From assembly GCA_024244705.1 (NCBI GenBank), contig JAAEOK010000052.1, forward strand, positions 62,001 through 126,000: 64,000 nt of DNA. Direction: 5' to 3'. Shown piece after piece: positions 23,109-28,466 of the stretch (position 1 is its first letter; every line of letters begins with the position of its first letter). The position numbers and the translations under genes were made by a program. The notes beneath the pieces are model-generated. The model ran no database searches and was not told the origin of the DNA. It saw only the letters and a program-made list of their open reading frames with translations. The DNA is from Alphaproteobacteria bacterium (GTDB lineage: Bacteria > Pseudomonadota > Alphaproteobacteria > JAAEOK01).

Positions 23109-24008
23109 CTATTGTGCCGAATGACCGGCATCCAAGACAAGTCGGAAACCAACCAAGATATGCTTGATATCCGTTGGACGGGAATGGCGACCCGCCGGGC
23201 GGCAAACGCCGCACCCCTTGTCGTCCCAGGATCCACCCTTGACGATGTAGCGGCGATCGCCCTTGGGGGTCGCGGTCCATTCATAGACCTGGCCCGCGGA
23301 ATCGAGGACGCCATAGGGACTGACACCCGCCGGAAAGGACCCGACCGGCATCGTGTCGAACGGGCCGAGATCATGGCTGTTCAGGCGATCGGGCTCGAAA
23401 GTATTGCCCCACGGGAAATACCGTCCGTCGGTGCCGCGCGCCGCTTTCTCCCACTCGGCCTCGGTCGGCAATCGCCATTGCATGCCTGTCTTGGCCGAAA
23501 GCCAGTCGGCGAAGGCCACCGCATCGGCATGGGAAACCATCACTACCGGGTGGTCCGCACGCCCCGGCGGGGGCGCCGGGCCGGTCCAGGCATGACGGCG
23601 GGTTCGCTCGTAGGGATGGATGAGCCTATAGCCGCGCCAGGTATCGGCGTCGACATTTGGCCAATTGTGGCCGGTATCGCGGACGAAAGCGGCGTACTGG
23701 GCATTGGTGACCGGCGTTTCGGTGATGCGGTAGGCGCCCGTATCCGCCGTGCCTAATGGTTCGTTTTCGTACCACTTGCGCTCCCGCGTGACACGATGGC
23801 CGTAGGCCGCTTCATCAAGCAAATAGGCGCTTTCGCGCTCGGCCCGGTCGGAGCCGTAGACGAATGGCCCGGCCGGCACCGCCACCGTCGCCGGCACCGG
23901 TGGTTCGGCCACCGGGGCCCGAACCGGGGCGAACGCCACGACCACGAGCGTAGCGGCCGCCAGCATTGATCGGCGCCATTTCGGCGCTGGCATTGGGATT
24001 CGAGGCAT
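23109..24008 (-). CDS. Exported SUMF1/FGE-like (formylglycine-generating enzyme superfamily) protein
   Basis: About 299 residues with a hydrophobic signal (RRSMLAAATLVVVAFAPVRA). The sulfatase-modifying-factor fold is evident: ITETPVTNAQYAAFVRDTG, HPVVMVSHADAVAFADWLS, WRLPTEAEWEKAARG, YFPWGN, and the end GGSWDDKGCGVCRPAGRHSR...GFRLV. The copper-binding active-site cysteines of true FGE are not in their usual places; instead a GCGVC pair sits in the late region. It may be a structural relative or use another substrate. The gene is divergent from the CNPC-repeat gene across 171 bases. Confidence 0.8.
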   Translation of the reverse strand: MPRIPMPAPKWRRSMLAAATLVVVAFAPVRAPVAEPPVPATVAVPAGPFVYGSDRAERESAYLLDEAAYGHRVTRERKWYENEPLGTADTGAYRITETPVTNAQYAAFVRDTGHNWPNVDADTWRGYRLIHPYERTRRHAWTGPAPPPGRADHPVVMVSHADAVAFADWLSAKTGMQWRLPTEAEWEKAARGTDGRYFPWGNTFEPDRLNSHDLGPFDTMPVGSFPAGVSPYGVLDSAGQVYEWTATPKGDRRYIVKGGSWDDKGCGVCRPAGRHSRPTDIKHILVGFRLVLDAGHSAQ

Positions 24009-24179
24009 AATCCTACAATCGGACCTTCGATGTGGGTTTTCCACTCAACTAGATGTGAGCGAACGTGAAAACACCTGACCACAAGATCGCCCTACTATTC
24101 GAATGTCTTGAATCGCCCTTGGGACCGGATCGAGGTTTAACCGCGGCCGAGCCGGGTGCGTCACAACCGGGAGGTAGAG

Positions 24180-25313
24180 GTGAAGGATTACAAACACAGC
24201 CTGCTTTCATCGACCAAGCTGCCGGTGCTGGCCGGTGCCGGCGCCCTTATCATCACAGTGACGGCCCTCGCGGTGATGGCGCCGCTGCCGGCGGCAAAGG
24301 CCAACCCGGCCGCGTTACCGGTGCAGATAGCGTCGTGCAATCCCTGCAACCCCTGCGCAGCCAATAAATGCAATCCGTGCAACCCTTGTAATCCGTGCAA
24401 TCCCTGCGCTGCGGCGAAATGCAATCCATGCAACCCTTGCAATCCGTGCAACCCATGTGCAGCGGCAAAATGCAATCCATGCAACCCTTGTAATCCGTGC
24501 AACCCCTGTAATCCCTGCGCAGCCGGCGGCGCGAAATCGGCGTGTGTGGTGCCGCGGCTGGCGGCGAACCCCTGCGCAGCGGCAAATCCGTGCAATCCTT
24601 GTAACCCGTGCAATCCGTGCGCGGCGAAATGCAATCCGTGCAACCCTTGCAATCCGTGCGCGGCAGCGAAATGCAATCCGTGTAATCCATGCAACCCGTG
24701 CGCCGCGGCGAAGTGCAATCCTTGTAATCCATGCAATCCGTGCAACCCCTGCGCAGCGTCAAATCCGTGCAATCCATGCAATCCTTGCAACCCCTGCGGC
24801 GGCGCCGCCGTCGGCGCGGAGATCACCGACGAAGAGGCCGTCGCCGTTTACGATTGCCTGCGCAAGGAATTAAAGGCGTCCTATGCCAAATCCGGCGTCG
24901 CCGCGGCGAAGACCTATCAATTGTGGCCGTCATACAATACCGCGCCCTACGTATCGGACACCCATGGCGGACGCTACGTGAACAATTACGGCAGCCCCGA
25001 CGCGCCGGTCTATGCCGAGTACGAAGGCTTGGTCGAGATGCCGGTCGGCGCCGAGTTGGCCAAGGATAGCTTCTCGGTCGCCGGCGACGGCAGCGTCAGC
25101 ATGGGGCCGCTGTTCCTGATGGAAAAAATGCCCGCCGGCTTCAACGCCGAGTCTCAGGATTGGAAATACACGATGATCATGCCGGGCGGCGCGATCTTCG
25201 GTGTCACCAACGGCAACAATTCGGCTGGCATGACGTTCTGTTTCGAGTGTCACATCGTGGCCGAGGATCACGATTCGATGATGTTTCTTCCCGAAGAATA
25301 CCGGAAGAAATAG
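24180..25313 (+). CDS. Exported cytochrome P460-like protein with a Cys-rich CNPC-repeat domain
   Basis: About 377 residues starting at a GTG, with GGGAGGT five bases upstream. Residues 1-45 contain an uncleaved or cleavable hydrophobic segment ([20 protein letters not shown]). Residues 53-206 are a low-complexity block of 34 Asn-Pro-Cys triplets in clusters separated by AAAK-type spacers; it holds 42 cysteines. Residues 207-377 resemble cytochrome P460: [57 protein letters not shown] and the c-heme motif FCFECH (CxxCH) near the C-terminus. The repeat cysteines lack the following His, so they should not hold c-type haem; metal binding, thiol chemistry or structural crosslinking is my inference. 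It is followed by a strong terminator. Confidence 0.85.
24336..24797 (+). repeat. NPC-triplet repeat, 154 codons
   Basis: Nine-base Asn-Pro-Cys units in runs of two to five, separated by spacers such as AANK, AAAK, AAK and AAS. A longer spacer with GGAKSAC and VVPRLAA divides it into two halves. Asn (aat/aac), Pro (ccg/cct/ccc/cca) and Cys (tgc/tgt) codons vary from unit to unit, so the protein pattern is kept while DNA identity is lost. Confidence 0.95.
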
Positions 25314-25416: not shown

Positions 25417-25854
25417 CTAATGGCCCTCGCCGCGGATGATCATGACCGAGCAATCGGCATGGCGGGCGACCTTCTCCGCATTGGGACCGATAAGGTAGTC
25501 CCTGAGCTCCGGGCGGTGAGACCGCATCACGATAAGATCGGCGTTGACCTTCTCGGCGGTCTCGACGATCTCGTGGTAGATGTTGCCGTCGGCGATGATG
25601 CACTGGACCTGGATATCGTCGGGCACGGCTTCCTTGACCAACGCATGGAGGTGTTCGTCGGCCTGCGCGGCCATCTTGTCCTCGTAGCCCTCCGGGAAGT
25701 ACTGGCCAACCATGGCCAGGCCGAAATCGGGAACCACATTCAGCACATGCAGTCGGGCGCCGAATGTGCGGCACAGTTCGGCGGCCACCGGCAGCGTGCG
25801 TTGCCCCGCCTTTTCGGAATTGAGGTCGAGCGGAACCAGAATATCCTTGAACAT
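25417..25854 (-). CDS. Universal stress protein (UspA family)
   Basis: A 145-residue single Usp domain: MFKDILVPLDLNSEKAG at the start and VNADLIVMRSHRPELRDYLIGPNAEKVARHADCSVMII at the end. The ATP-loop pattern G-x2-G-x9-G is altered (the SHRP...GPNAEKV region lacks the classical GxxGxG), so it may not bind ATP. It directly follows the fused TRAP permease gene. In Halomonas, a Usp protein (TeaD) encoded beside TRAP genes regulates that transporter, so a similar task is likely. Confidence 0.85.
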   Translation of the reverse strand: MFKDILVPLDLNSEKAGQRTLPVAAELCRTFGARLHVLNVVPDFGLAMVGQYFPEGYEDKMAAQADEHLHALVKEAVPDDIQVQCIIADGNIYHEIVETAEKVNADLIVMRSHRPELRDYLIGPNAEKVARHADCSVMIIRGEGH

Positions 25855-25865
25855 GCCTAATCTCC

Positions 25866-28466
25866 CTATGCCGTGGCCGTTTCGGCAGGTTCTTTGCGGC
25901 GCCGGCCGCGTTGCATCAAGACAATGAGGACCAGAACGATAAAGGCCGGAATGTACATCCACTCCTTGGCCATCCGGTCGCTTGCCACCAGCACACCGGT
26001 GATGGCGAAGTCCCACTCGACGCCGGCCTTTTCCGCCGGGCTGCCGAAGCCGATATTGTCGACCAGAATCTGACCGTCCTCGTCGAGCAACTCGAGCCCG
26101 GCGAACATCAAGCGCTCCTCGCCGGTCCCGGGCGGGCCAAGAGGCAGGATGACCTGCTTTCTGACGCGAACGCCGTCAGCATTTTCCCCTTCGATGTCGA
26201 GGCGGATATCCGCGTTCGGCGGCTGATCCTCGGCAATCTCAATGACGTCGGTCGGCGGGACCGTGGTGAACGGCGGCTGGATCATATCCATCCAGAAACC
26301 GGGTCGGAACAAGGTGAACGCGATCACAAGCAGTATCACGGATTCGTAGATTCGACTGCGCGCTATGAAGAAGCCTTGAGTCGCGGCCGCGAATATGAGC
26401 ATCGCCAGTGTCGCCGTTATCACGGTGAGGACGAGGTCGAAGGGCCCATCGATACCGATCAGCAGCAGCTTCGTGTTGAAGATGAACAGGAACGGCAGCG
26501 CCGCGGTGCGCAAGCTATAGAAGAAGGCGGTAAACCCAGTCTTCATGGGATCGCCCCCCGACACCGCCGCCGCGGCGAACGACGCCAGCCCCACCGGCGG
26601 CGTCACGTCGGCCATGATACCGAAATAGAACACGAACATGTGAACGGCGATCAGCGGTACGATCAACCCCGACTGCGACCCGAGCTCGACCACGACGCCA
26701 GCCATCAACGACGACACGACGATGTAGTTGGCCGTCGTCGGCAGACCCATGCCGAGGATCAGGCTGATGATTGCGACGAAGAAGAGCATCAGGATCAGGC
26801 TGCCGCCGGAGATAAACTCGACGAATTCCGCCATCACCAGGCCGACGCCAGTCAGCGTCACTGTGCCGACGATGATACCGGCGGCGGCGGTCGCAATGGC
26901 GATGCCGATCATGTTGCGGGCGCCGGCGATCATGCCTTCCCAAAAGTCATTGACGCCTTCTCGAAACGCGGCCGCGGCGTTACCGGCCTTACGGAACATC
27001 ACCTTCAGTGGCTTCTGGGTCAGCAAGATGAAAATCATGAAACAGGTCGCCCAGAACGCGGACAGCCCAGGCGAATAGCGTTCGATCATCAGGAACCAAA
27101 TCAGGATGATGACCGGCAATAGGTAATGCAGCCCGGAGCGAATCGTTGGGCCCGCCTCGGGCAGCTTGACCACCGGCGAATTCGGATCGTCGAGCTCGAG
27201 TTCGGGAAAACGGGCGCCATACCACAACAGGCCGATGTAAGCGACGAACACGCCGATCGTCACGATCAGCGCCGCGCTGTCGGGCGCGAAATCCTTGATC
27301 CAGCCGATCGTGTAATAGACCGCGAACGACAGGATGATGATGCTGCAGACCGAGATTCCGGCCGATATCAGGCCTTGGACTACAGTTCTCTGAATCGGCT
27401 TCTCGAGCGCCTGCATGTTCGCTTTCACCGCCTCGAGATGGACGATGTAGACAAGTGCGATATAGGAGATCACCGCCGGAAGAATGGCGTGCTTGACGAC
27501 CTCGATATAGGGAATGCCGACATACTCGACCATGAGGAACGCCGCGGCGCCCATGACCGGCGGCATGATCTGGCCGTTGACCGAAGACGCGACCTCGACC
27601 GCGCCCGCCTTTTCGGACGTGAACCCGACTCGCTTCATAAGCGGAATCGTGAATGTCCCGGTCGTCACCACGTTGGCGATCGAGGACCCCGAGATCAACC
27701 CGGTCATGCCGGAGGCGACGACCGCCGCTTTTGCCGGCCCGCCCCGCAAGTGGCCGAGCAGGGCGAAGGCGACCTTGATGAAATAGTTGCCGGCGCCCGC
27801 CTTGTCCAACAGCGCGCCGAACAGGACGAACAAGAAGACGAAGTCGGTCGACACGCCGAGCGCGATACCGAAGACGCCTTCGGTCGTCAGCCACAAATGG
27901 TTCATTGCCTTGGTGATCGATGCGCCCTTCCAAGCGATCACCTCCGGCCCCAAGTGGCCAAAGAAGATGTAGGCCAAGAAGACAAGGGCAACGACCATCA
28001 GCGGCGGGCCGAGCGCGCGACGGGTCGCCTCGAGCAGCAGGACGATGCCAACTGCGGAGACGATCAAATCGAGCTCGGTCGGCTGGCCGGGCCGGGCCGA
28101 GATCTGGACGTAGAAGATGTAGAGGTAGGCCGAGGTGAACGCGCCGACCAGCGCCATGCCCCAATCCTGGATCGGAATGTAGCCGCGCGGCGACCGCTTC
28201 AACGCCGGATAGGCGGCAAAGGCGAGGAACAGGGCCAGGGCGAGGTGGATGTAACGCGCCTGGTTCGAATTGAAGATGCCGAAATTGAACATGAACGGCA
28301 GCGGCGAGGCGATCCATAGCTGAAAAATCGACCACGCGAAGGCGACCCATAGCAGAAGCTTGCCGACGGCCCCTGCCGGCGATCGGGCGCCGGTGTCGGT
28401 TTGAGCGATAAGGTCTTGAAGTTCCTCGTCTGAGGCTTGACGGCCGGTCGTATTGTCGTCGCTCAT
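25866..28466 (-). CDS. TRAP transporter permease, fused small and large subunits (TAXI type)
   Basis: An 866-residue inner-membrane protein. The N-terminal part carries the 4-helix DctQ-like module (about 30-190) and the rest the 12-helix DctM module, with TGLISGSSIANVVTTGTFTIPLMKRVGF and GMGLPTTANYIVVSSL. The last 150 residues include a PDZ-like region of the DUF3394 type (DNIGFGSPAEKAGVEWDFAITG) and a final helix. Fused 4TM/12TM permeases work with TAXI binding proteins, two of which lie upstream. GGGAGA precedes the ATG. Confidence 0.93.
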   Translation of the reverse strand: MSDDNTTGRQASDEELQDLIAQTDTGARSPAGAVGKLLLWVAFAWSIFQLWIASPLPFMFNFGIFNSNQARYIHLALALFLAFAAYPALKRSPRGYIPIQDWGMALVGAFTSAYLYIFYVQISARPGQPTELDLIVSAVGIVLLLEATRRALGPPLMVVALVFLAYIFFGHLGPEVIAWKGASITKAMNHLWLTTEGVFGIALGVSTDFVFLFVLFGALLDKAGAGNYFIKVAFALLGHLRGGPAKAAVVASGMTGLISGSSIANVVTTGTFTIPLMKRVGFTSEKAGAVEVASSVNGQIMPPVMGAAAFLMVEYVGIPYIEVVKHAILPAVISYIALVYIVHLEAVKANMQALEKPIQRTVVQGLISAGISVCSIIILSFAVYYTIGWIKDFAPDSAALIVTIGVFVAYIGLLWYGARFPELELDDPNSPVVKLPEAGPTIRSGLHYLLPVIILIWFLMIERYSPGLSAFWATCFMIFILLTQKPLKVMFRKAGNAAAAFREGVNDFWEGMIAGARNMIGIAIATAAAGIIVGTVTLTGVGLVMAEFVEFISGGSLILMLFFVAIISLILGMGLPTTANYIVVSSLMAGVVVELGSQSGLIVPLIAVHMFVFYFGIMADVTPPVGLASFAAAAVSGGDPMKTGFTAFFYSLRTAALPFLFIFNTKLLLIGIDGPFDLVLTVITATLAMLIFAAATQGFFIARSRIYESVILLVIAFTLFRPGFWMDMIQPPFTTVPPTDVIEIAEDQPPNADIRLDIEGENADGVRVRKQVILPLGPPGTGEERLMFAGLELLDEDGQILVDNIGFGSPAEKAGVEWDFAITGVLVASDRMAKEWMYIPAFIVLVLIVLMQRGRRRKEPAETATA

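Follow-up and report, generated by a model that had tools for sequence, protein, structure and literature searches.

The closest known logic to that of the locus described here appears, by analogy, to be that of the bufferins, MNIO (DUF692) RiPPs that are likewise rich in Cys, exported by Sec and served by partner genes of their own. Fusions of bufferins to cytochrome c and FGE-sulfatase domains (Cytochrom_C, FGE-sulfatase) are reported but rare (PMC12452194). The Cys-repeat arm of the present protein differs from bufferins in its repeat and in having DUF6969 as a partner, and neither DUF692 nor DUF2063 was seen, by inspection, among the recurrent neighbour clusters of arm genes. Metallothioneins resemble the arm in being very Cys-rich, with no aromatic residues and many CxxC pairs; unlike them, the arm is secreted, is built of a repetitive CNPC unit, is fused to a haem domain and has no Pfam metallothionein match.

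Cytochromes c'-beta have no Lys at the position of the P460 cross-link, usually carrying Phe there, and a distal carboxylate (Glu96/Asp102) is required for NH2OH oxidation by cytochrome P460. The cross-link position corresponds to Lys70 in Nitrosomonas europaea P460 and to Met79 in NeCP-beta (PMC11928373, a 2025 review). The FGE/SUMF1 family (PF03781) also includes EgtB, OvoA and ToxD, and the canonical Cu-binding Cys pair of FGE has the spacing C-x4-C. FGE oxidises a peptidyl Cys bound to a Cu(I) bis-thiolate and has the substrate consensus CxPxR (PMC12123546). Both the haem fold and the principle of a secreted, Cys-rich client protein are already known. What appears to be undescribed is the combination found here, along with the family of repeats and the partnership with DUF6969, and we found no open-access paper on DUF6969, on CNPCNPC, or on P460 together with formylglycine.

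The window, a 64,000-nucleotide stretch of an alphaproteobacterial contig (JAAEOK010000052.1), contains on its plus strand an ORF (24180..25313) for a protein of 377 aa. Its start codon is GTG at 24180, with a strong upstream ribosome-binding site, preceded by GGAGGTAGAG; an alternative in-frame GTG at 24156 gives a longer ORF but has no comparable ribosome-binding site. Our sequence analysis identifies the product as a secreted c-type haem protein of predicted P460/c'-beta fold bearing a Cys-repeat arm. The Sec-type N-terminus (24180..24305, plus strand), recognized by inspection, includes the letters AAKA and carries an LLSST motif common to armed relatives. It is followed by the arm (24336..24797, plus strand; residues 53-206), in which tandem repeats were found. 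A recount of the ORF gave the 34 NPC triplets and 42 Cys in 154 residues that the first-pass annotation had reported, together with 35 Asn, 35 Pro, 27 Ala and 7 Lys; the binomial chance of at least 42 Cys in the arm, at 1% Cys, is 4e-47. The motif CVVPRL (24543..24560, plus strand) divides the arm into two blocks, and C-x-[VI]-P is found in many P460-armed relatives. At DNA level the 34 NPC units are written with 12 synonymous variants and so are not one copied DNA word. With relatives also keeping the frame, an origin of the arm as a DNA-level artefact or a single copied repeat is ruled out.

The C-terminal domain (24798..25310, plus strand) was characterized by alignment, Pfam, AlphaFold2 and Foldseek. 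Alone, the window protein scores 18-20 bits (E 8e-4) against Pfam Cytochrome_P460, below the cut-off of 27; PF16694 is matched by all 54 aligned relatives at E<=0.01, the best at 5e-12. A PDB profile search with the domain recovered cytochrome c'-beta (7s5o, E 1.7e-4) and P460 (8gar and 2je2, E about 0.03). The AlphaFold2 model of the domain has a pLDDT of 92.8, and its best Foldseek matches are 6hiu, the M. capsulatus P460 (E 7.6e-7), 7ead (8e-6) and 2je2 (5e-5); the sole significant matches are M. capsulatus P460, T. thermophilus c'-beta, and Nitrosomonas P460 and c'-beta. The P460-like identity proposed in the first-pass annotation was thus borne out by the relatives and the predicted fold, the single sequence being sub-threshold, as was its single CxxCH: there is exactly one in the domain (CFECH, within FCFECH, at about 25239..25253, plus strand). 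Invariant positions in the 54-sequence alignment are Y18, H56, R59, Y72, K89, G103, F106, M108, K110, M111, W122, Y124 and the CxxCH. In the profile alignment K89 (25062..25064, plus strand) coincides with the cross-linking Lys of N. europaea P460 (2je2/8gar; PMC11928373) and with the Met of NeCP-beta (7s5o). All 54 sequences have this Lys, so the family does not share the defining c'-beta feature, its absence. Together, the Pfam relatives, the fold matches and the K89 alignment place the domain in the P460/c'-beta superfamily with a P460-type Lys; the Lys-haem bond and hydroxylamine oxidation are putative. E109, nearly invariant, is a candidate distal carboxylate within a loop that is not reliably alignable. 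The domain thus resembles known members of PF16694 in predicted fold, CxxCH and cross-link Lys. It differs in its polycysteine arm, in the conserved neighbours described below and in the invariant THGGR and GPLFLMEKM regions, and has 15-20% identity to the solved structures.

A scan of genome contigs yielded 127 relatives, of which 80 were kept, all from Alphaproteobacteria or Proteobacteria; at least 70 alphaproteobacterial relatives have comparable arms. Six or more Cys precede the P460 domain in 79 of 108 relative ORFs, and the remainder are mostly arm-less paralogues. Cys residues of these arms are separated mainly by two residues (1343 gaps, NP in 1138) and next by five (479), and many arms are divided by C-x-[VI]-P-[RS]. 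Conservation of the repeat as protein holds for its frame and its Cys-[NP/GA]-Cys character and fails for its length, which lies anywhere between some 9 and some 90 Cys. CNPC-type repeats also occur in other genomes, CNPCNPC being present in 34 of 385 alphaproteobacterial genomes. The first-pass statement that no named family has this repeat still stands: NCBIfam gave no match, the arm has no Pfam match, and no CNPCNPC paper was found in the open-access literature. In two genomes the P460 domain is broken by TGA or lies in fragments (L008/L011 in G027, L009 in G034), as decaying copies or sequencing errors.

The arm is not confined to this domain. Stand-alone arm proteins of about 75-160 aa, with hydrophobic N-termini that mark them by inspection as secreted, exist in several genomes, including that of the window. 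In genome G295 a second Cys arm is inserted inside the P460 domain, just past the strand of the cross-link Lys (L184:1808-2710, plus strand), and P460 matches are split at the same point in G096, G205 and G373, of the same family as G295. In G466, from another class of the phylum, Cys-repeat arms flank a secreted SoxA/TsdA-type cytochrome c (L179:4768-5613, minus strand; PF21342, E 6e-10) that adjoins DUF6969 and DUF3179. A leader-like motif, LL[SAT][ST]T, is present in 42 of 67 armed proteins versus 1 of 30 arm-less ones, and so follows the arm, not P460; as a universal signal it was rejected, being absent from several stand-alone arms.

Divergent from the arm gene lies a gene for a secreted, predicted periplasmic FGE-fold protein, here FGE* (23109..24044, minus strand, true start possibly 24008; PF03781, E 4e-45). 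Its PDB profile matches are FGE, EgtB and ToxD, and genome searches set its tight subfamily apart from other FGE-fold proteins at E<=1e-104. FGE* shares the fold domain of the FGE/SUMF1 family and differs in lacking both the canonical Cys-pair spacing and a sulfatase substrate: the Cys pair is replaced by GCGxC (23202..23216, minus strand, from the alignment), within a GGSWDDxGCGxC motif invariant in 24 of 24 sequences. The arm, composed of CNPC[NA] and CVVPRL, contains no CxPxR; it resembles the CxP core of the FGE consensus minus the Arg. CVVPRL as a specific FGE* substrate was rejected for want of a clean link, since Sneathiella has CVVPSV and no FGE*, and other genomes without FGE* keep PRL.

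Four nucleotides past the FGE* stop begins a DUF6969 gene (PF22308; 22331..23104, minus strand). Its product has a His-rich core, YYYHSH...EHGHFH, with H73, H91, H93, H104, H106 and H138 invariant in 33 of 33 sequences, and by inspection no signal peptide. The conserved His cluster suggests that DUF6969 is probably a metalloenzyme. The model is confident (pLDDT 88.6, pTM 0.88) and matches no PDB entry by sequence search or Foldseek (best E 0.59, TM <0.25). A known fold was accordingly rejected, and the fold is apparently unrepresented in the PDB.

The P460-arm gene, FGE* and DUF6969 lie together in the window, and FGE* and DUF6969 recur beside arm genes elsewhere. Co-occurrence was assessed in one set of 385 alphaproteobacterial genomes, collapsed to 173 families for a family-level test. 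DUF6969 was found in 89 genomes, P460 in 55, CNPCNPC in 34 (control 0) and FGE* in 31. Counted as both, first only, second only and neither, DUF6969 and P460 gave 40/49/15/281 (p 1e-17), DUF6969 and CNPC 31/58/3/293 (p 6e-19), and FGE* and DUF6969 29/2/60/294 (p 2e-18), the last pair being adjacent in 26 of 29 genomes; for P460 and CNPC p was 2e-23. All pairings are enriched (p between 1e-16 and 1e-23 overall), and this holds over the 173 families as well (p 6e-11 to 1e-13). Where a P460 locus lacks DUF6969, the gene is found elsewhere in 21 of 24 such genomes, the three exceptions being two Emcibacter, whose NPC arms are of a single-Cys kind, and a Kiloniella that has no arm.

DUF6969 adjoins arm-only proteins where P460 is absent. 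At DUF6969 loci without P460, a Cys-repeat ORF lies within 2.5 kb in 19 of 44 cases, a few of the 44 being short stretches whose P460 may lie past the end, versus 0 of 17 control pieces, a small set cut from the window and hence from one genome; such an ORF is absent within 2.5 kb at the other 25. FGE* is also present at several of the P460-less loci with Cys-repeat ORFs. Among 24 genomes that have the wider P460 family, 9 are without FGE*, as are 60 of the 89 DUF6969 genomes, and FGE* is therefore not obligatory. Phage or plasmid cargo was rejected, the P460 domain and DUF6969 having no PHROGs match and the P460 domain no plasmid match. We are highly confident that the arm gene, FGE* and DUF6969 form a real module. 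The first-pass annotation had missed that the Cys-repeat arm moves from one carrier to another and has a genetic link to DUF6969 and an FGE-like protein.

The palindrome TCACG-N4-CGTGA was found upstream of arm/P460 genes in 11 of 52 regions (at most 2 in shuffles). An extended form, TCACR-N4-YGTGA-N6-KTGA, is usually followed after ~22 nt by TANNNT (dyad examples at L040:3782 and L033:5271) and has only 1-3 copies per genome in 13 genomes 3-6 Mb in size (control 0). The 13 entries were selected for the motif at an arm gene and include one genome twice (L006 and L059), so that what is telling is how few other sites there are. These others lie ahead of an arm-only gene, of DUF3179, and of a secreted cupredoxin-like protein accompanied by a MerA-like flavoprotein; for one more site no target is apparent. 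The dyad is common to P460, arm-only and other genes. The window has only a partial match to the exact dyad.

Next to the arm gene, a universal stress protein and a DctM-DUF3394 TRAP transporter are encoded at 25417-28466 (minus strand); genome G266 has a similar order around an arm gene without P460. A secreted cupredoxin-like protein of about 165-175 aa with no Pfam/NCBIfam match recurs near arm genes (L199:1664-2176, L105:2043-2534). Unlinked arm-only genes adjoin a MerA-like flavoprotein, including in the window's own genome, where the gene of a stand-alone CNPC protein is next to that of a MerA-like FAD disulfide oxidoreductase (L219, G000:C82:103500-111500); the same pairing is seen in G001, G306, G341 and G028. 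At L221 (G094), DUF6969 and an NPC-repeat protein lie near a true MerA (527 bits, cut-off 454) and an HMA-domain (MerP-like) protein. YeeE/YedE sulfur transporters, rhodanese and small cytochromes c occur near other arm or DUF6969 genes, and copper genes were not seen among the recurrent neighbours. These neighbours hint at thiophilic metal or sulfur chemistry, either one.

We favour, at a little under even confidence, a reading in which the arm is a dedicated client of DUF6969/FGE* and an extracytoplasmic soft-metal or thiol sink, with P460 as the attached haem partner; that the arm is modified is suggested by the gene association. Taken separately, the client relationship is rather probable, and a soft-metal or thiol sink is about as probable as all other roles taken together. 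DUF6969, with no signal peptide, would act before Sec export, modifying or protecting the polycysteine protein. FGE*, given its hydrophobic N-terminus, would act on Cys after export, possibly via a Cu(I) bis-thiolate at its CGxC in a chemistry related to that of FGE. The mature arm would then be an extracytoplasmic sink for a thiophilic metal (Cu(I), possibly Hg(II)) or for oxidised or sulfane sulfur, beside which the P460 haem might give or take electrons or handle NO/NH2OH. Points against the favoured reading are the missing CxPxR in the arm and the missing canonical Cys spacing in FGE*, the genomes that have no FGE*, the 25 P460-less DUF6969 loci with no Cys-repeat ORF close by, the want of copper genes as recurrent neighbours, and the partial match to the dyad in the window. 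More tentatively, we speculate that there may be a post-translational system that is new and has no relation to MNIO/bufferin, in which DUF6969, as a new-fold metalloenzyme, works with an FGE-fold oxidase to modify polycysteine proteins of the CNPC type, fused to c-type haem domains, so that they carry soft metal or sulfur.

Alternatively, though we consider it somewhat less likely, the arm could be a thiol-disulfide or sulfane-sulfur relay, its CxPC-like dithiols carrying electrons or sulfur and the covalently attached haem (P460 or SoxA/TsdA cytochrome) passing electrons to a small cytochrome c encoded nearby. The fusion to the SoxA/TsdA-type cytochrome agrees with such a role, as do the arm inserted right behind the cross-link-Lys strand, the mono-haem cytochrome c within 1.5 kb of DUF6969 at 29 of 118 loci, and the recurrence of YeeE/YedE, rhodanese and the MerA/disulfide-reductase-like flavoprotein. 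However, sulfur genes are a minority of the neighbours, the arm is repeated far more than a relay needs, and the flavoprotein has no visible signal peptide and so is probably not in the arm's compartment.

A function centred on P460, detoxifying NO/NH2OH or peroxide with the arm merely tethering or clustering the enzyme, is improbable: the P460 fold and cross-link Lys are conserved and arm-less P460 paralogues carry the promoter dyad too, but DUF6969 and FGE* travel with arms in genomes without this P460, and arms occur stand-alone. A structural scaffold, in the form of a disulfide-cross-linked envelope layer, would fit a repeat length as variable as in structural repeat proteins, but is very improbable: the arms are short and contain Lys, they occur as fusions with haem proteins, and two enzyme-like partners go with them. 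Of the roles raised in the first-pass annotation, metal store and electron relay stay hypothetical, and a passive scaffold is less likely because of the dedicated partner genes.

A haem fold of the nitrogen cycle is now linked to an undescribed polycysteine family and to DUF6969, found in 89 of the 385 sampled alphaproteobacterial genomes, and DUF6969, a widespread family of unknown function, now has a specific client that can be tested. Should the arm prove to be modified, it would stand for a new class of modified Cys proteins exported by Sec, with new enzymes to make them; if it is unmodified, it would still be a new way of joining a thiol-rich metal or sulfur sink to haem.
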